Assembly (NCBI GenBank): GCA_040755395.1
Contig: JBFMAX010000001.1
Location: 434,001-498,000 of the forward strand
DNA from: Nitrospirota bacterium
GTDB lineage: Bacteria > Nitrospirota > Nitrospiria > Nitrospirales > Nitrospiraceae
Reading direction: 5' to 3'
Length of the DNA: 64,000 nucleotides
In this document: piece by piece, positions 34,532 through 60,637 of the stretch
How the letters are laid out: every line of letters starts with the position of its first letter
Numbering within the stretch: position 1 is the stretch's first letter
Position numbers and translations under genes: made by a program
Notes under the pieces: model-generated
The model's input: only the letters and a program-made list of their open reading frames with translations
Database searches by the model: none
Told to the model about the DNA's origin: nothing

Positions 34532-35734
34532 ATGAGCGTAAAATCATCGCTCAGCAGCGGACATCCGGGACTGATCGCCGAGATCGCGGCGGAAATTTCA
34601 CGCTCGGGTCCTATCCCTTTTGCCCGGTTTATGGAGCTTGCGCTCTACCACCCGCGGTTCGGGTACTACGTTCGCCCAGCGGATGGTCCGGCGACCGAGC
34701 GTATCGGCTGGTCGGGCGACTTCTACACGAGTTCCGACGTGCATCCGTTGCTTGGTCAGGCGTTGGCCAGACAGGCCCGGCAGATCGACGAACTGCTCGA
34801 CTGCCCTGATCCCTTCACCGTCGTCGAGATGGGCGCGGGGAAAGGGCTCCTCGCCCGACATTTCCTCGCGAGCTGCGGGAAGGAATCCGCTTCTCTTGCG
34901 AATCGCCTCCGATATCTCCTGATCGAGCGCAGCCCGGCCATGCGGGAGCAGCAGCGTCGGAACCTCGCGCCCTATCTCGACCCTCCTGCTCGAGTCTCCT
35001 GGGTCTCCGGTCTGTCCGACCTTCCGGATGCGAGCCTGGTCGGGTTGTTGCTTTCGAACGAACTGGTCGATGCGTTCCCGGTGCATCGCATCGAGATCGT
35101 CGGCGGCGAACCGAGGGAGATCCACGTCGACTATCGGGACGGGCGGTTCCTAGAATGTCTATATCCTCCGTCCACCCCGGAGATCGAAGCGTATGTGCGC
35201 CGCGTGGGCGCGGACCTGTCCGACGGGTATCGGACCGAGATCAATCTCGAAGCGCTCCGATGGATCAAAGACGTCGCTCGTGTCATGGGTCGCGGCATCG
35301 TCATCACCATCGACTACGGTCACAGCGCGCAGGACCTGTACGCGCCCGAGCGCCGTCGTGGGACGTTCCTCTGCTACTACCATCAGATGGCGTCGGAGGA
35401 CCCCTACACCCGCGTCGGGGAACAGGACATGACCGCCCACGTCGATTTCACCAGCTTGGCGACGGCCGGCGAAGAAGCGGGGCTGCGTGTGGCCGGATTC
35501 ACCAATCAGATGAGCTTCCTGATCAGTCTCGGCGCCGAACACATGATCGACTCACTCGATCCCGAGTCGCCGGAATTTCGGGCCGCACTGCATTTGCTCA
35601 AGCCGGAAGGCATGGGGCGCACGTTCAAGATCCTTGTGCAGCGCAAGGGCATGCCCGAGCCGGAGTTGGAGGGATTGAAGTACAAGCCGTTCTTCGGGAA
35701 CGCACTGGTTGCTTCGGCACCCAGGAGTCATTAG
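34532..35734 (+). CDS. SAM-dependent methyltransferase, MidA/NDUFAF7 family
   Basis: This 400-residue class I methyltransferase of the PF02636 family has GDFYTSSDVHPLLG (62-75), the SAM-binding EMGAGKG (99-105), LLSNELVDAFPVHR and the late VDFTSLATAGEEAGL. The human member NDUFAF7 dimethylates an arginine of complex I subunit NDUFS2. This gene lies directly upstream of nuoA on the same strand, and that arginine is conserved in the NuoCD encoded 2 kb downstream (R237 in YLHRGVEK). The likely job is complex I assembly or modification. Function is inferred from the human enzyme plus context. Confidence 0.85.
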   Translation: MSVKSSLSSGHPGLIAEIAAEISRSGPIPFARFMELALYHPRFGYYVRPADGPATERIGWSGDFYTSSDVHPLLGQALARQARQIDELLDCPDPFTVVEMGAGKGLLARHFLASCGKESASLANRLRYLLIERSPAMREQQRRNLAPYLDPPARVSWVSGLSDLPDASLVGLLLSNELVDAFPVHRIEIVGGEPREIHVDYRDGRFLECLYPPSTPEIEAYVRRVGADLSDGYRTEINLEALRWIKDVARVMGRGIVITIDYGHSAQDLYAPERRRGTFLCYYHQMASEDPYTRVGEQDMTAHVDFTSLATAGEEAGLRVAGFTNQMSFLISLGAEHMIDSLDPESPEFRAALHLLKPEGMGRTFKILVQRKGMPEPELEGLKYKPFFGNALVASAPRSH

Positions 35735-35827
35735 TCAATGGTCAGTGGTCAATGGCGAAGAACACCTCCGTGGGACCGGTACGATTAAGCCCCCATTGCC
35801 CAATGACTGATGACCTTTGACCAATCT
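35731..35827. repeat. Junction inverted-repeat spacer (GTCAATG family), before nuoA
   Basis: The left arm has GTCATTAGTCAATGGTCAG; the right arm (about 35788-35826) has CCATTGCCCAATGACTGATG and TTTGACCAAT. The arms pair at about 17 of 22 positions around a loop of about 35 nt. The right arm touches the nuoA ATG, and no Shine-Dalgarno is left. Confidence 0.75.
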
Positions 35828-39369: not shown

Positions 39370-40686
39370 ATGGCCAAACACGAACTCATTTTGCTGAAGA
39401 ACATGACATCGCCGGGCTACACGGGCTCGCTGGCGGACTACGAGCGGGCGGGCGGATATCAGGCGCTCCGCAAGACGCTCGGCAAGATCGCACCGGCGGA
39501 CGTGACGGCGATAGTGGTGAAGTCGGGATTGCGGGGGCGCGGGGGCGCGGGATTCCCGACCGGGATCAAATGGGGATTCCTGCCCAAGGATTATCAGGGT
39601 CCTCGTTACCTGTGCTGCAACGCGGACGAGAGCGAACCGGGCACGTTCAAGGACCGCCAACTGATCGAACGCGACCCCCACCAGGTCATCGAAGGCATCC
39701 TGCTCGCCTGTTACGCCATCGGGGCCGAGACCGCCTACATCTATATTCGAGGGGAATTTGCCTTGGGCGCCGCGATTCTGGAACGGGCCTTGTCGGAAGC
39801 CGGAGCCGCCGGCTACATCGGCCGGAACATTCTCGGCACGGGGGTCAACATCGACGTGTGGATTCACCGCGGAGCCGGCGCCTACATTTGCGGGGAAGAG
39901 ACGGCGCTCCTGGAGTCGCTCGAAGGGAAGCGGGGCTTGCCGCGCGTGAAACCGCCGTTTCCTGCCACCCACGGCCTGTACGGCAAGCCGACCGTGGTCA
40001 ACAACGTGGAGACGCTCGCGAACCTGCCGCATATCCTCAACCGCGGCGCCGAATGGTTCGCCTCGATCGGTTCGCCGCCGAAGAGCACGGGCACCCGCAT
40101 CTTCTGCGTGAGCGGCCATGTGCGGCGGCCCGGCAATTACGAAGTGCCGATGGGAATTACGTTCCGCGAGTTGATCTTCGAACACGCCGGCGGCATGCGC
40201 TCGGACAAGTCGCTGAAGGCGTTCATCCCGGGAGGGGCGTCGGCGCCGTTTTTGACCCCGGACCACTTGGACGTGAAAATGGACTTCGAGTCGGTGGCCC
40301 AGGCCGGGTCGATGCTGGGATCGGGCGGGGTCACGGTCATGGAGGAAGGCACCAGCATGGTCTGGGCCACGCTGCGCCTGATGGAGTTCTTCTACCACGA
40401 GTCCTGCGGCAAGTGCACCCCGTGCCGGGAAGGCAGTTCGTGGTTGGTCCAGACCATGCGTCGCATCCTCGCCAAGCGCGGCCGCCGGGAGGACCTTGAA
40501 ACCCTGACCGATCTGTGCCAGAACATCGCCGGCCGAACGGTCTGCGCGTTCGGCGACGCCGAGGTGGCCCCGGTCATGAGCACCCTGAAGTACTGGCGGC
40601 ACGAGTATGAGGACCTGATCCGGGAGGCGGAATCGCTGGGCCTGTCAGGCGTCCCCGAACTGGTCCTGCCGGCGGGACGATATTAA
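39370..40686 (+). CDS. nuoF: NADH-quinone oxidoreductase subunit F
   Basis: This 438-residue subunit oxidises NADH. It has the FMN/NAD-binding GLRGRGGAGFPTGIKWGF and CNADESEPGTFKDR, and the N3 cluster motif SCGKCTPCREG with a further Cys in DLCQNIAGRTVCAFGD. The ATG at 39370 is set by GATGAG upstream and the family N-terminus. Confidence 0.96.
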   Translation: MAKHELILLKNMTSPGYTGSLADYERAGGYQALRKTLGKIAPADVTAIVVKSGLRGRGGAGFPTGIKWGFLPKDYQGPRYLCCNADESEPGTFKDRQLIERDPHQVIEGILLACYAIGAETAYIYIRGEFALGAAILERALSEAGAAGYIGRNILGTGVNIDVWIHRGAGAYICGEETALLESLEGKRGLPRVKPPFPATHGLYGKPTVVNNVETLANLPHILNRGAEWFASIGSPPKSTGTRIFCVSGHVRRPGNYEVPMGITFRELIFEHAGGMRSDKSLKAFIPGGASAPFLTPDHLDVKMDFESVAQAGSMLGSGGVTVMEEGTSMVWATLRLMEFFYHESCGKCTPCREGSSWLVQTMRRILAKRGRREDLETLTDLCQNIAGRTVCAFGDAEVAPVMSTLKYWRHEYEDLIREAESLGLSGVPELVLPAGRY

Positions 40687-40777
40687 AAACGTTAAACGTG
40701 AATCGTTATTCGTGAATCGCAAAAGGACAGATCGGCTCTTGCGTTGAACGGTTAACGGTTAACGAATAACGGGGAAC
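40687..40777. repeat. Junction inverted-repeat spacer (CGTTAAC family), nuoF-nuoG
   Basis: The left arm AACGTTAAACGTGAATCGTT and ATTCGTGAA face the right arm TTGAACGGTTAACGGTTAAC and GAATAACG. The word family is shared with the nuoB-nuoCD junction. Confidence 0.7.
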
Positions 40778-43480: not shown

Positions 43481-43482
43481 CC

Positions 43483-43562
43483 AATCGTCAATGGTCATTG
43501 GTCAACGGTCACCGGGAAATAGGCACGGCTCACCATTGACTGTTTTCCATTGACCGTTGACA
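43483..43562. repeat. Junction inverted-repeat spacer (GTCAATGG family), nuoG-nuoH
   Basis: The left arm CGTCAATGGTCATTGGTCAA and CGGTCA faces the right arm CCATTGACTGTTTTCCATTG and ACCGTTGAC. GTCAACGGTCA/GACCGTTGAC and GTCAATGGT/ACCATTGAC pair exactly in parts. Confidence 0.75.
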
Positions 43563-43588
43563 TCGACGATCTTCAGTCCGGAGGAACC

Positions 43589-45950: not shown

Positions 45951-46253
45951 ATGATCCCCTTAAGCTATTACATCATCCTGAGCGCCTTCGTGTTCATCAC
46001 CGGCGTGGTGGGCGTGCTGATCCGGCGGAACATCATCATCATTCTGCTGTCGGTGGAGCTGATGCTGAACGCTACGAACATCAACTTCGTGGCCTTCTCG
46101 CATTATCTTCAGAGCGTGGCCGGCCAGGTGTTCGTCTTTTTCGCGCTGACGGTCGCGGCGGCCGAGGTCGCCGTCGGTCTGGCGATCATCATCGCCCTCT
46201 ACCGATCCAAATCGAGCATTAACGTGGACGAGTTTCAGCTTCTAAAATGGTGA
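45951..46253 (+). CDS. nuoK: NADH-quinone oxidoreductase subunit K
   Basis: This 100-residue three-helix antiporter-like subunit has the conserved [20 protein letters not shown] with the membrane glutamate, and [17 protein letters not shown]. The start at ATG 45951 ([10 protein letters not shown]) fits the family; GAGG is upstream. Confidence 0.95.
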
Positions 46254-46254
46254 A

Positions 46255-46358
46255 CATGTCATTGGTCAACGGGCATAGGTCAACGGCAAGGAACCGAACA
46301 CCGGCTTTCAGAGCATTTCTTCACTGTTGATCAATGACTCTTGTCCATTTGACCCATT
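46255..46358. repeat. Junction inverted-repeat spacer (GTCATTGGTCAAC family), nuoK-nuoL
   Basis: GTCATTGGTCAAC on the left and GTTGATCAATGAC on the right pair over 13 nt with one mismatch; further GGTCAACGG and GTCCATTTGACCC words extend the arms. The loop is about 35-40 nt. The nuoL ATG lacks a Shine-Dalgarno because the arm ends 4-5 nt before it. Confidence 0.75.
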
Positions 46359-46362
46359 ACAT

Positions 46363-48360: not shown

Positions 48361-49950
48361 ATGAGCGAACCGAGCCTACAAAGCGCGTTCCCCTGGCTGA
48401 CCGCCGTGGTGTTTCTGCCCCTCGTCGGCGCGGCGCTCGTCTGCCTTGTCAGAGATACCATGGTCCGTTGGACGGCGTTGGCGGTGACGGTCGCCGACGT
48501 TCTGGTGGCGCTGCCCGTCTGGTTTCAGTTCGATCCCGCCGTTTCGGGAATGCAGTTCACCGAGCACGTGCCCTGGATCGCGTCTCCGCCGATCAGCTAT
48601 CAGCTGGGCGTGGACGGCATCAGCCTGCCGCTGGTGCTCATGACCGCCCTCTTGATGCCGCTCTGCGTGCTCGCCTCCTGGCGGGCGATCGAGACCCGCA
48701 TCCGCAGTTTCATGGCCGTCACGTTGATCATGGAAGCGGCGATGCTCGGCGTGTTCGTCGCGCTCGACTTCGTGTTGTTCTATGTCTTCTGGGAAGCGAT
48801 GCTGATCCCGATGTATCTCCTGATCGGCGTGTGGGGCGGCCCGAACCGGCTATACGCGGCCATCAAGTTCTTTCTCTATACCCTGGCCGGCAGCGTCCTG
48901 TTGCTGGTCGCGATCATCGTCCTGTACTTCCAGGGCGGCCACACGTTCGACATCCTCGCGCTCGGCCGGCAGACCTACGACGCCTCGCTCCAGAGCTGGC
49001 TGTTCCTCGCCTTCTTCGCCGCCTTCGCGGTCAAGGTGCCGATGTTCCCGTTCCATACCTGGCTGCCCGACGCCCACGTCGAGGCGCCCACCGCCGGCAG
49101 CGTGATTCTCGCCAGCATCCTGCTGAAGATGGGCGCGTACGGCTTCCTGCGCTTCACGCTCCCCATGCTGCCGGACGCGACGGTGACGTTCACGCCGCTC
49201 ATGATCATGCTTTCGATCGTGGCGATCATCTACGGCGCCTACATGGCGCTGGCCCAGGCCGACCTCAAAAAACTCATCGCCTATTCCAGCGTCAGCCACA
49301 TGGGCTTCGTCACGCTCGGCATCTTCGTCCTGAACCACCAGGGGATCGAGGGCGCGGTGCTGCAGATGGTCAACCACGGCATCACGACCGGCGCGTTGTT
49401 TCTGTGCGTCGGCGCCGTCTACGAGCGGACGCACAGCCGGATGATCGCAGACAACGTGGGATTGGCCGGTCCCATGCCGCGGTACGCCACCCTGCTGGTG
49501 ATCTTCGCGCTCTCGTCGCTGGGGCTGCCCGGCACGAACAGCTTTGTCGGCGAGTTTCTCGTGCTCGTCGGAGCCTTCCTCTGGAACAAGATCGCGGCGA
49601 GCCTGTCTGCGCTCGGCGTTATCCTGGCCGCGGTCTACTTGCTGTGGATGGTCCAGCGCGTGGCGTTCGGCGTGCCGGCTGAACGCTACGTCCGCCACCT
49701 GGTCGATCTGAACCTGCGCGAGATGGCCACCCTCGCGCCGCTGGTCGCGCTGGTGTTTTGGATCGGCTTCTTCCCGAATCCCGTGCTCACGCGAATGCAC
49801 GCCAGCGTCAACGAGCTGGTCGAACGAGCCGAGGCTCGGAGCCAGGGGCCAGAGGCGAGGGGCAATCGGACCGACGGCTCGGAGCAGCGTGATGCGTCTT
49901 CCCCTCTGGCCTCTCGCCTCGACCCTCGTGCCTGGGAGGATCGCCCATGA
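48361..49950 (+). CDS. nuoM: NADH-quinone oxidoreductase subunit M
   Basis: This 529-residue antiporter-like subunit has FYVFWEAMLIPMYLLIGVWG, VKVPMFPFHTWLPDAHVEAP, and QADLKKLIAYSSVSHMGFV. The normal chain ends around NPVLTRMHASVNELVE. The last 40 or so residues (from about 490, including SQGPEARGNRTDGSEQ) are encoded by an inverted-repeat cassette and are probably a disordered tail. The stop overlaps the nuoN start as ATGA. Confidence 0.95.
   Translation: MSEPSLQSAFPWLTAVVFLPLVGAALVCLVRDTMVRWTALAVTVADVLVALPVWFQFDPAVSGMQFTEHVPWIASPPISYQLGVDGISLPLVLMTALLMPLCVLASWRAIETRIRSFMAVTLIMEAAMLGVFVALDFVLFYVFWEAMLIPMYLLIGVWGGPNRLYAAIKFFLYTLAGSVLLLVAIIVLYFQGGHTFDILALGRQTYDASLQSWLFLAFFAAFAVKVPMFPFHTWLPDAHVEAPTAGSVILASILLKMGAYGFLRFTLPMLPDATVTFTPLMIMLSIVAIIYGAYMALAQADLKKLIAYSSVSHMGFVTLGIFVLNHQGIEGAVLQMVNHGITTGALFLCVGAVYERTHSRMIADNVGLAGPMPRYATLLVIFALSSLGLPGTNSFVGEFLVLVGAFLWNKIAASLSALGVILAAVYLLWMVQRVAFGVPAERYVRHLVDLNLREMATLAPLVALVFWIGFFPNPVLTRMHASVNELVERAEARSQGPEARGNRTDGSEQRDASSPLASRLDPRAWEDRP
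49829..49942. repeat. Inverted-repeat cassette forming the nuoM 3' end
   Basis: The left arm GGAGCCAGGGGCCAGAGGCG and AGGGGC pairs with the right arm CCCCTCTGGCCTCTCGCCTC around about 40 nt. The open frame is kept through the whole cassette up to the nuoN start. Confidence 0.78.
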
Positions 49951-56448: not shown

Positions 56449-56826
56449 CCAACGGTCAACGGTCATCAGTCAACGGTTAAGAGTTAGTTCTGATCCGAAA
56501 ATATTTCTCTCGGCAAAATGCCTTTCCCCGGTTCCCGAAAGGATCCTCTCCCTCGCGCGGGAGGGAGAGGAGACAGGTGAGGGTGGTATCCGAAAAGCAC
56601 CCCCTCACCGCAGCCTCTCCCCCAATGGGGGCGAGGAGAATAGAGGGCTCAAGGTCGGAAGGAATTTCGGATCAGGGTTAGATGTGAAAATCGCCATTGG
56701 CGGCCGACGACAAGGCGACTGCAAATCACAAGCGCTCATGCAGAACGGAGCCCTTGGTAGTCCCTCTGTGACCCATTGACCAATGACCCTTGACCGTTGA
56801 CCAGTGACCCTTGACCGTTGACCAGT
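56449..56826. repeat. Nested palindromic repeat region (three concentric inverted pairs)
   Basis: The outer arms are GGTCAACGGTCATCAGTCAA near 56452 and repeated TTGACC words at 56767-56826, including a perfect 21-bp tandem duplication (56784-56804 and 56805-56825). The middle pair is CTGATCCGAAA (56490-56500) and TTTCGGATCAG (56665-56675). The inner pair is AGGTGAGGGTG near 56575 and CACCCCCTCACC near 56603, flanked by GGGAGGGAGAGG-type words that occur in many bacteria. No gene lies in this 400-nt stretch. Confidence 0.8.
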
Positions 56827-57423: not shown

Positions 57424-58293
57424 ATGAAGAACGCCTTCTACCGTGGCCACGGCCTCGGTAACGATTATCTCGTGATGGACCCGAAGGAGTTGTCGTTCAA
57501 ACTCACGCCCGCCAACGTCCGGGCGATCTGCGACCGCCACCGGGGCCTGGGCAGCGACGGCATTCTCGCGCCCGTCCCCTCCAAGAACGCCGACTTCGGC
57601 CTGCGCATCTTCAATCCCGACGGCAGCGAAGCGGAAAAATCCGGCAACGGCCTGCGCATCTTCGCCCGCTATCTGCATGCGACCGGCCGCGTCCGCCGGA
57701 AAACGTTCAGCGTGGACACGAAGGGCGGACGGGTTGCGGTCGAGCTGCATCTGGATCGGTACGGAGAGGCCAGCGCCGTGACGGTCGAGATGGGGCGGGC
57801 CTCTTTCGAGCCCGACGCGCTCCCATGCAAACTGTCCGTGGACGAGCTGATTAACCAGCCGATCACGGTCGCCGGACAAGAACTCCGCTTTACCGGCGTC
57901 AGCGTCGGCAATCCCCATTGCGTCGTCTTCAAGCCGAAAGGAGCGGAGTGGACGCGAGACGAACTTCTCCTCCTCGGTCCGGAACTCGAAAATCATCCGC
58001 TCTTCCCCAAACGAACCAACGTCCAGCTCGCCGTGCCGACCGGTCCGCGGGACATCTTCATGCTGATCTGGGAACGGGGCGCGGGAGAGACCCAAGCCTC
58101 CGGGTCCTCTTCCTGCGCCGCCGCCAGCGCGGCCGTGCGGTTGGGCCTGGTGCGGAGCCCGGTCTCCGTCAGGATGCCGGGCGGCGCCTTGCGCATCGAC
58201 GTGGACCGGGACTTCAGCCTCACCATGCAGGGGCCCGTCGCGGAAGTGGCGCGCGGCACTTTGAGCCCGGCGTTTGTGCGCACATTACACTGA
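57424..58293 (+). CDS. DapF-family epimerase with both catalytic cysteines replaced by serine
   Basis: This 289-residue protein has the full DapF double-hotdog pattern (HGLGNDYLVMD, HRGLGSDGIL, FNPDGSEAEKSGNGLRIFAR, GNPHCVVF, ERGAGETQASGSSSCAAASA). The catalytic pair of diaminopimelate epimerase is Cys-Gly-Asn-Gly and Ala-Cys-Gly-Thr. Here both cysteines are serine, S73 and S226, confirmed at codon level (TCC in both). C231 is a few residues away and is not the normal acid/base. It may epimerise another substrate or work with serines. DapF identity cannot be assumed. It has AGGAAAGG upstream. Confidence 0.82.
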   Translation: MKNAFYRGHGLGNDYLVMDPKELSFKLTPANVRAICDRHRGLGSDGILAPVPSKNADFGLRIFNPDGSEAEKSGNGLRIFARYLHATGRVRRKTFSVDTKGGRVAVELHLDRYGEASAVTVEMGRASFEPDALPCKLSVDELINQPITVAGQELRFTGVSVGNPHCVVFKPKGAEWTRDELLLLGPELENHPLFPKRTNVQLAVPTGPRDIFMLIWERGAGETQASGSSSCAAASAAVRLGLVRSPVSVRMPGGALRIDVDRDFSLTMQGPVAEVARGTLSPAFVRTLH

Positions 58294-58807
58294 CGAGTCA
58301 ACGGTCATTGGTCAAGGGTCAATGGGAACGGCCAAACCCAGAGGCAATAGGGTCAAGACATTCCAGGACTTGGAAGTCTGGCAAGTAGGAAGAAGGATTC
58401 GCAGCCAGCTTTATGGAGTAGCCAACCGACTCCCTGATTGTGAACGCTATAACCTGTCAGCGCAGATCAGAAGGGCTGCAGTCTCACTGACTTCGAACAT
58501 TGCGGAAGGATATGGGCGTTATCATTTCAAGGAGAATGTTAAGTGTTGTCGCATCTCCAGGGGCTCGGCCTATGAGTTGATTGACCATCTCATTGCGTGC
58601 CAAGATGAGCGTTATCTGAAAAAGAAAGGAGGAAGCCTAAGACTTACACCGTGAACTGTTAACGTTTTTGCGCCTTCTGAACGGATACATTCGCAGCATC
58701 GGCAGGCCAACAAGCGGTCAATAGTCAATGGTCATTACTCATTGGGGGCAACGAAGCAAGCCGATTGCCATTGACTGTTGACCATCGACCATCTTAACCG
58801 TTGACCA
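58294..58807. repeat. Repeat-flanked cassette carrying the S23 gene
   Basis: The left arm (58296-58325) has GTCAACGGTCATTGGTCAAG and GGTCAATGG; the right side (58716-58807) has GGTCAATAGTCAATGGTCAT facing CCATTGACTGTTGACCATCG and TTGACCAATGA. The S23 start codon lies inside the left arm, its ancestral stop at the first base of the right arm, and the uvrC start inside the last arm. Confidence 0.78.
58322..58724 (+). pseudogene. Four-helix bundle (S23/IVS) protein gene, C-terminal frame broken
   Basis: The open frame 58322-58654 encodes 110 residues of the S23 family (PF05635), with FQDLEVWQVGRRIRSQLYGV, RAAVSLTSNIAEGYGR and SRGSAYELIDHLIACQDERY. The family's last helix is found in another frame (HRELLTFLRLLNGYIRSIGR, ending at 58724). 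Reaching it needs loss of one G near 58641 and reversal of an in-frame TAA. The gene is therefore a recent wreck. S23 genes are known from intervening sequences of 23S rRNA; here it sits between junction-repeat arms. Confidence 0.72.
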
Positions 58808-60637
58808 ATGACCCCTGAACTCCAATCCAAGCTCGACCGCCTTCCGACCCAGCCGGGCGTGTACCTGTTCAAGAGCGCCAGGGGGGAGATCCTGTATATC
58901 GGCAAGGCCGGCGTGCTGGCCGACCGCGTGCGGTCGTACTTCCAGCGTGGGAGCGATCACACGCCGAAAACCACCGTGCTGGTCGGTCAGGTCGCGGACA
59001 TTGAAACGATCGTCACCCGATCGGAACTCGAAGCCCTCATCCTCGAAAGCAACCTGATCAAACGCCACCGCCCCCGATTCAACGTCGTCCTCCGCGACGA
59101 CAAGCAGTATCCCTACCTCCGCCTGCCGATTAAGGAGGACTTCCCGCGTCTGTCGATCGTCCGCCGCGTGCAGAAAGACGGCGCGCTCTACTACGGCCCT
59201 TACACCCCGGCCGGCGCCCTGCGCGAAACCCTGAAGGTCATCCGCAAGGTGTTCCCCCTCGCCACCTGCGAGATCGACATCGACGGAAAGGCCGAGCGCG
59301 CCTGCATTGAGTTCGAGATCAAGCGATGCATGGCACCCTGCATCGGCAACCAGACCCGCGACGAGTATCACCGGATCGTCAAGCAGGTCCGCCAATTCCT
59401 GGAAGGGCGCGACACCGAACTGCTGGAAGACTTGCGCGCGCACATGCACGCGGCGGCCGAGCGGGAAGACTTCGAAGAGGCGGCCCGGCTACGCGACCGG
59501 ATCTTCAAGATCGAGCGGACCTTGGAGAAACAGCGGATCACCCAGACCGCTTCGACGGACCAGGACGTCATCGGGCTGGCGCGGCAGGGAACGGCGGTCG
59601 ATCTCCAGATGCTGTTCGTGCGCGGCGGCCTGCTGATCGGGCGCAAGGATTTTTTCTGGACCGAGTCGGCGGAGGCGAGCGACGAGGAGCTCGTCCGGTC
59701 GGCCGTCGAGCAGTTTTACAACAAGGACGGGCTCCCGCCGAAGGAGTTGCTGGTCCCGACCGCGTTGGGGGACGCGGCGTTGATCGAGCGGTGGCTGTCC
59801 GAGAAGAAAGGCGAGACGGTGCGGGTGATCGCGCCGGAGCGAGGGAAGAAACATCAGTTAGTCCAACTCGCGGAGGAAAACGCGGCCGTGGCGCTCGCCG
59901 ACCATCTCCGCGACGAAGAGACCGATCGCCTGGCGACGGAGGAACTGAAGCGCTTACTCCGCCTCGACAAGGCCCCGCGCCGCATCGAAGGATTCGACAT
60001 CTCGAACACGATGGGCGACCAGTCGGTCGCCTCGCTTGTCGTGTGGGAGGACGGCCAGGCCAAGAAATCGGACTATCGGAAGTTCCGCATCCGGACCGTC
60101 GCGGGAGCGAACGACTTCGCCAGCATGAGAGAAGCGGTGATGCGGCGTTACGGCCAGGCCTGTGGTGAGCAAGGCCGAACCACTGAAGATCTGCCGCTGC
60201 CGGACCTCGTCCTGATCGACGGCGGGCTCGGCCAACTTGCCGCCGCGATGGAGGGCTTGAAGCAAGTCGGACGCGCGGAGTTGCCGATCATCGGACTGGC
60301 CAAGGCTCGCGGCGAGAAAGAAGAGCGCGTCTTTCTCCCCGGCCGCAAAAACCCCGTCATGCTGAATCCGTCTTCGCCCGCCACGCACCTGCTCCAACGC
60401 ATCCGCGACGAAGCGCATCGGTTCGCCGTCACCTACCATCGAAAGCTCCGAGGAAACGCCCTGGTCGCGTCACGGCTCGACCAGATCATCGGGATCGGCG
60501 AGATCCGGCGGAACACTCTGCTCAAGACCTTCGGGAGCCTGGAAACCATCGCTCAGGCGACCGACGAAGAACTGAAACAGGCGGGCATCGACAGCAAGAC
60601 GGCTGTCGAGATCCGGAAGGCGCTGTCTAAAACTTAA
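58808..60637 (+). CDS. uvrC: Excinuclease ABC subunit C
   Basis: This 609-residue protein makes both incisions in nucleotide excision repair. It has an N-terminal GIY-YIG nuclease domain (QPGVYLFKSARGEILYIGKA), a UVR motif (EDFEEAARLRDRIFKIERTL, about 220-240), the RNase H-like nuclease core (EGFDISNTMG, LVLIDGGLGQL) and C-terminal HhH motifs. The ATG sits inside a TTGACCAATGA repeat word without a Shine-Dalgarno. Confidence 0.96.
   Translation: MTPELQSKLDRLPTQPGVYLFKSARGEILYIGKAGVLADRVRSYFQRGSDHTPKTTVLVGQVADIETIVTRSELEALILESNLIKRHRPRFNVVLRDDKQYPYLRLPIKEDFPRLSIVRRVQKDGALYYGPYTPAGALRETLKVIRKVFPLATCEIDIDGKAERACIEFEIKRCMAPCIGNQTRDEYHRIVKQVRQFLEGRDTELLEDLRAHMHAAAEREDFEEAARLRDRIFKIERTLEKQRITQTASTDQDVIGLARQGTAVDLQMLFVRGGLLIGRKDFFWTESAEASDEELVRSAVEQFYNKDGLPPKELLVPTALGDAALIERWLSEKKGETVRVIAPERGKKHQLVQLAEENAAVALADHLRDEETDRLATEELKRLLRLDKAPRRIEGFDISNTMGDQSVASLVVWEDGQAKKSDYRKFRIRTVAGANDFASMREAVMRRYGQACGEQGRTTEDLPLPDLVLIDGGLGQLAAAMEGLKQVGRAELPIIGLAKARGEKEERVFLPGRKNPVMLNPSSPATHLLQRIRDEAHRFAVTYHRKLRGNALVASRLDQIIGIGEIRRNTLLKTFGSLETIAQATDEELKQAGIDSKTAVEIRKALSKT

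Follow-up and report, generated by a model that had tools for sequence, protein, structure and literature searches.

S23 or 'four helix bundle' genes are annotated without a function in many genomes. Over the years, scattered reports have also described degenerate heptamer repeats, variously as SSRs, G-quadruplex repeats, regulatory sites or intron hairpins. Both occur in a 64,000-nt stretch of a Nitrospirota bacterium genome (the window, in what follows), in which an S23 gene lies among heptamer arrays between dapF and uvrC. The locus raises the question of whether gene and repeats form a unit and, if so, of what kind. Here, we argue that an S23 gene with its heptamer arms is likely to be one minimal mobile element, representing a previously unrecognised small class, and that S23 genes and the scattered heptamer repeats are probably one system. 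We regard the class as new relative to the openly licensed literature; subscription literature or preprints may hold parts of it.

The dapF stop codon occupies positions 58291–58293 and uvrC starts at 58808; the gene and its arrays fall within 58294–58820. In a profile search, the open reading frame (ORF) at 58274–58654 matches PF05635 with E=5.8e-26 and 91.2 bits, above the curated cut-off of 33.8, which together with the arrays confirms the initial annotation of an S23 gene framed by heptamer repeats at this junction. The match covers 88 of the 106 profile positions, stopping at position 88, because the reading frame is broken near 58630. Orthologues at the same junction in relatives (L165 and L166) read on past this point, supporting the frameshift that had been proposed from the window alone. 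The present frame ends at 58654, and the original TAG lies at 58722–58724, so that the frameshifted gene, as delimited by PF05635 and the orthologues, extends over 58322–58724 on the plus strand.

The left arm (58297–58324, plus strand; seen in the sequence, the inverted-repeat pairs I1/I2 and pattern matches) consists of four degenerate heptamers, GTCAACG-GTCATTG-GTCAAGG-GTCAATG, which correspond to TGACCNN read on the minus strand. As had been noticed initially, the S23 start codon lies inside this arm: the ATG at 58322–58324 is formed by the last three bases of unit 4. A second array, GGTCAATAGTCAATGGTCATT (58716–58736, plus strand; sequence, inverted repeats and pattern), holds the original TAG. 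The frame of L165 ends at a stop in GGTCAATAG, the equivalent of 58716–58724 in the window, and this orthologue keeps both the ATG within the arm and the TAG within the second array. The earlier reading that the original stop abuts the opposite arm is to be corrected in that this array has the same orientation as the left arm. The arrays facing the other way, both on the plus strand and both supported by inverted repeats and pattern matches, are TTGACTGTTGACCATCGACC at 58771–58790 and the outer right arm TTAACCGTTGACCAATGACCCCTGAAC at 58794–58820, which includes the uvrC ATG at 58808. The second array pairs with 58768–58790 as a hairpin, and the region 58716–58820 gives an RNA fold z of −3.74. 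An Rfam scan of the 64-kb window gave no match, and a Pfam scan of the S23 ORF found only PF05635, with no Y1 (HUH) or other transposase. We favour the reading of the window copy as a decaying insertion in the dapF–uvrC junction.

The repeat is not confined to this junction. With at most one mismatch, TGACCNNTGACC has 37 matches in the window, where 4.2 are expected and no shuffle reached 37, and among array periods of 5–11 only period 7 is enriched there (16 arrays versus 0–4). A strict three-unit pattern occurs 15 times in the source genome, and its reversed control is absent from all 60 family genomes. Several of the window occurrences, none assigned to a strand, are inverted pairs lacking an S23 gene. 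One TGACCNN pair (56449–56823; pattern, L434 and period scan) has roughly 300 bp of other sequence between its arms; further repeat-like sequence, CCTCTCCC...GGGAGAGG, lies in its enclosure at 56472–56777, perhaps a nested element. Arms-only TGACCNN elements lie at a nuo-type operon junction (35726–35822; pattern, RNA fold z=−2.7 and period scan) and at the nuo junction at 43481–43565 (comparison with relatives, RNA fold z=−4.7 and period scan), and pattern matches reveal a degenerate one at 46252–46360. An array of CGTTAAA/CGTGAAT-type heptamers with an inverted partner (40686–40708; sequence and period scan) matches the repeat that frames another S23 copy of the source genome (L002). A GGAGCCAGGGGCCAG-type heptamer array, also with an inverted partner, is present at 49838–49863. 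The interiors of most arms-only elements in the source genome are mutually unrelated, and some of these elements may therefore stem from in-place array growth.

The source genome contains six PF05635 genes, and by eye all six are framed by inverted short-tandem arrays, each of a different heptamer (GCGTGAT, CGTGAAT, GTCAATG, GTGATTG, GAATGAG and GGCGATC); the weaker arms of L004 and L006 fall below our periodicity threshold, and at L001 the scan chose another stretch. The initial annotation had suggested examining whether S23 genes elsewhere are bordered by inverted short-tandem arms, and such borders were found across phyla. In a first sample of 75 S23 loci, drawn from named genomes across many phyla and one archaeal metagenome-assembled genome (MAG), strong lag-7 periodicity was present on the left of 58, on the right of 53 and on both sides of 46; for lags other than multiples of 7, the figures were 0–8 loci per side and at most six on both sides. 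A larger sample comprised 269 non-redundant loci with full flanks, drawn from Nitrospirota, named genomes, gammaproteobacteria and viral-collection contigs. Here, lag 7 was strong at 173 loci on the left, 169 on the right and 135 (50%) on both sides. Lag 8 (left 39, right 37, both sides 29) defines an octamer class, and lags that are multiples of neither 7 nor 8 appeared on both sides in at most six. Among 630 control ORFs from the same contigs, the lag-7 signal reached 8.4% on the left, 9.2% on the right and 1.4% on both sides, the one-sided background of 8–9% probably being due in part to arms-only elements. About one-fifth of S23 loci have no strong lag-7 array on either flank at the threshold used; some of the loci without strong lag-7 periodicity belong to the octamer class, and others show short or decayed arms on inspection. 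The S23 gene of the Methanophagales archaeon MAG (L117) has a heptamer-like right flank, and a search of phage records for S23 gave no match.

The arms share a common geometry. The left array mostly lies 40–150 bp upstream of the conserved domain, the right one at or just after the stop codon, and array positions around the ORF step by exactly 7. At 79% of the 75 loci, the best 21-mer matches between the arms in inverted orientation at 17 or more of 21 positions (direct orientation, 15%); a match of this quality to an arm of another locus occurs in 4%, indicating that arms are locus-specific. Each side has a median of four units, which is also the peak, and the longest array has 74. L154 (Vreelandella sedimenti) carries about 30 units to the left of its S23 gene and about 70 or more to the right, and the arms of L088 and L118 are also unusually long. 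Very long arrays at a few loci are what slipped-strand microsatellite expansion beside unrelated genes would produce, with S23 hitch-hiking and no functional link between the two. We give this explanation hardly any credence, because the period is confined to 7 (or 8), the arrays are inverted on the two sides with a mode of four units, the motif is specific to the S23 subfamily and only 1.4% of control ORFs have arrays on both sides. A chance-microsatellite reading was rejected on the period, the inversion, the unit number and the control ORFs.

Comparison of repeats with proteins refines the picture, since the repeat differs by S23 subfamily and is an octamer in some families. The octamer class groups into S23 clades: the S23 tree requires 17 changes of unit length, compared with a mean of 31 after shuffling (minimum 28 of 300). 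Agreement in unit length climbs from about 68% to 95% as S23 identity increases. When the two loci of a pair have unrelated flanks, their motif similarity is 0.46 at 25–30% S23 identity, 0.61 at 60–65% and 0.73 at 70–80%. Within loci fetched from the family of the source genome, only the S23 subfamily to which the window copy belongs has the TGACCNN type, which is present in members of at least 72% identity and missing from neighbours at about 60%, and the outer arms keep a constant direction relative to the S23 gene. Such covariation is the trace expected of a protein that recognizes its own repeat, and from it we infer binding.

The same junctions in relatives differ in their content. Across 60 relatives, the states of the dapF–uvrC and nuo junctions range over clean, arms-only (with about ten repeat types) and S23-bearing. 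At dapF–uvrC, some Nitrospiraceae lack any repeat (for example G138, with a junction of 13 bp); two main repeat types make up the arms-only elements; G108, G159 and the source genome (G000) have S23 with TGACCNN arms; G027 has a deleted S23; and in G155 and G123 the S23 belongs to another subfamily and its repeats differ as well. The copies common to G000, G108 and G159 may reflect one old insertion or repeated insertions. The S23 subfamily at this junction in G155 (L198) is very different from that of the window copy, and G155 has two dapF-like matches in tandem. At the nuo junction represented by window positions 43481–43565, about ten genomes have a clean orthologous site, and other relatives carry about ten different 7- or 8-mer types, nested once (G139). 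Within the complete genome G014, two S23 copies (L016 and L446) about 216 kb apart are 97% identical over 499 bp; their boundaries are not clean, because both lie beside other, CRISPR-like shared repeats.

Occupied and empty sites are found on cyanobacterial plasmids, where roughly 430 bp including both arms is inserted between flanks that are 97% identical. At site A, the element (L466) lies between two genes on a Trichormus variabilis plasmid; in plasmids of Aulosira, N. carneum and Tolypothrix, these two genes adjoin directly, at 97.3–97.7% identity. The empty sequence reads AAAAAGTAATTAACAAATA, and the occupied one AAAAAGTAAT, arm, S23, arm, GTAATTAACAAATA, with GTAAT on both sides of the element. 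Site C is occupied in three Nostoc plasmids and empty in two, with TTCTA on both sides. The two sites point to a likely 5-bp target duplication, which is readable at these two, whereas divergence or alteration obscures it at sites B, D, E and F. Plasmids also differ in whether sites B and D are occupied, the exact edges of the two sites not being readable; at site F (Anabaena 90 versus Dolichospermum), the junction was changed by another insertion, leaving no clean empty site. The evidence for transposition here is the comparison of sites. These occupied and empty plasmid sites, together with the three states of the dapF–uvrC junction, indicate that the gene and its arms form a single mobile cassette, as the initial annotation had supposed, and provide the occupied and empty sites that it had suggested seeking.

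The plasmids also clarify the origin of arms-only elements. The plasmid element has a single annotated ORF. At site B of one plasmid, the same repeat is found in an arms-only version (L481), and the site A copy on a Nostoc C052 plasmid is internally deleted (L471). At site C of Nostoc N6, the S23 gene is split by an arms-only element that carries the same heptamer; this element belongs to a multicopy family found in 101 places in 43 cyanobacterial plasmids, and four aligned copies have both ends in common and unrelated flanks. The earlier proposal that the other junctions could be emptied cassettes can be refined: L194 and L471 are internally deleted intermediates, but a dispersed arms-only family inserts on its own, and arms-only (non-autonomous) derivatives is the better term for those junctions.

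Could the arrays instead serve S23, acting as a host RNA-binding regulator, as regulatory or RNA-processing sites (RNase III-type hairpins or binding sites), and could repeats and gene have spread by selection for regulation rather than as a selfish element? The arms fold as stable RNA hairpins (z from −2.7 to −4.7) and often overlap the start and stop codons of neighbouring genes, S23 genes are under purifying selection (dN/dS 0.07–0.14), and the solved S23 structures 2gsc (XCC0516) and 2rld each contain five chains per entry, which suggests that S23 forms a ring; each of these features would suit a regulator. The title of the 2gsc paper refers to 'five four-helix bundles' (cited in PMC3936711). 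We nevertheless consider such a role unlikely to explain the arrays, because the window S23 gene is broken, the same site in relatives is clean or carries unrelated repeat types, an insertion is nested inside an S23 gene and the whole unit is missing from empty sites with nearly identical flanks.

Movement by reverse transcription is another possibility, given that S23 is homologous to Avd of diversity-generating retroelements (4DWL/2GSC alignment, cited in PMC10053308) and that a hairpin at the terminus would fit with an intermediate made of RNA. Avd, however, needs a reverse transcriptase and template and variable repeats, none of which accompanies the S23 element. A PF00078 (RVT_1) search covering 60 relatives found no such gene in G120 (eight S23 genes), G108 (11), G146 (seven), G149 (seven) or G125, G129, G132, G140 and G145 (six each), and none is present in the source genome with its six copies. 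The lack of a reverse transcriptase in genomes with 6–11 S23 genes argues against the need for an Avd-type partnership, and the likely short target duplication at two sites is of the DNA-transposon type. We therefore rejected reverse-transcriptase dependence as a requirement and regard movement by this route as very improbable.

Among known systems, the S23 mobile element resembles REPIN/RAYT, in which a protein gene is flanked by inverted repeats, short inverted-pair derivatives are dispersed and repeat type tracks protein type. All three features are also found in S23 elements, and REPIN/RAYT is their best functional analogue. However, RAYT belongs to the Y1 tyrosine transposases and each REP is a single palindrome, whereas S23 is a four-helix bundle associated with tandem 7/8-mer arrays; we do not class the S23 element as REPIN/RAYT because the defining transposase is absent. 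With MITEs and their parent insertion sequences, it shares terminal inverted repeats and multicopy non-autonomous copies, and a target duplication is likely at two sites, but it has no recognized transposase, and its ends are tandem arrays that vary between closely related families.

The 23S rRNA intervening sequences (IVSs) of Coxiella and Leptospira are similar in that S23 is the sole ORF, the length is about 430 nt and complementary termini form a stem. In the Coxiella IVS, the heptamer GACAGAT is repeated two or three times in tandem immediately upstream of the S23 start, and the terminal stem measures 28 bp; the authors of that report give mobility as an old hypothesis (PMC4990558). The window element likewise has an S23 ORF within complementary termini; IVSs, in contrast, lie in rRNA helices and are described as rRNA-restricted, and the window element lies between dapF and uvrC rather than in a 23S rRNA helix. 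Motif probes of about 310 S23 loci placed none inside 23S rRNA and detected no flanking 23S motifs at insertion distance. The small S23 class probably includes the 23S rRNA IVSs.

Published heptamer repeats are also degenerate, intergenic arrays, often in convergent pairs. They include GGGAATC in Xanthomonas and Nostoc, with 70–75 convergent inverted pairs per Xanthomonas genome (PMC4692102), TAACTGA in Beggiatoaceae, for which the author raised the speculation that the mobile element might be a protein that binds the repeats (PMC4679880), heptanucleotide repeats in the P6b hairpin of the Nostoc tRNA-Leu intron (PMC3488679) and heptanucleotide elements of Geobacter (PMC2700814); in the passages considered, these four reports make no mention of S23. 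GGGAATC arms frame an XCC0516-like S23 gene in gammaproteobacterium G538 (L388), apparently between accB- and accC-like genes.

In the explanation that we favour, an element of about 0.43–0.5 kb, with S23 as its sole ORF and inverted arrays of about four degenerate 7-nt units (8-nt in some subfamilies) as its ends, inserts between genes; the two clearest sites suggest that 5 bp of the target is likely to be duplicated. The element leaves shorter arms-only derivatives of about 60–200 bp, which disperse and form hairpins, and each S23 subfamily has its own cognate repeat. The anatomy and its recurrence across phyla, the insertion of the whole unit, the dispersed derivatives and the covariation of repeat and S23 are shown by the comparisons above. 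With regard to binding, the requirement for S23 and the enzymology, we infer the following as the most likely mechanism. The protein, a putative ring-forming four-helix bundle, would bind its own arrays as hairpin nucleic acid with about one protomer per unit and present the ends, in cis or, for arms-only copies, in trans, to a strand-cutting and -joining activity supplied by S23 itself or by a host enzyme. That the ring might read one repeat unit per protomer is an attractive idea, which the four units per arm would fit only roughly. A Pfam scan found no recognized nuclease or recombinase motif in S23. More tentatively, S23 could be a new kind of transposition protein, a four-helix-bundle ring that recognizes tandem 7/8-nt repeats and cuts or joins ends through its conserved polar face (GxxRxxxSxxxNxxE...E). 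It would then define a class of very small elements found across bacterial phyla and, in one case, in an archaeal MAG; rRNA intervening sequences, the heptanucleotide hairpins of cyanobacteria and the S23 genes reported in CRISPR–cas loci would all belong to this class.

A cognate repeat for each S23 subfamily, joint insertion and dispersal would combine into one testable mobile-element system without a recognized transposase, and regarding S23 as part of a mobile element offers a simple account of S23 genes inside rRNA, cas operons and conjugation operons. S23 genes have been reported in cas loci (PMC3936711), and insertion of an S23 element plausibly accounts for these IVP/S23 genes. On the Anabaena sp. 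90 plasmid pANA02 (L484, 1483–2010), a type I-D CRISPR locus has an S23 element between its cas6 and cas4 genes, and the right heptamer arm of this element now supplies the new N terminus of Cas4.
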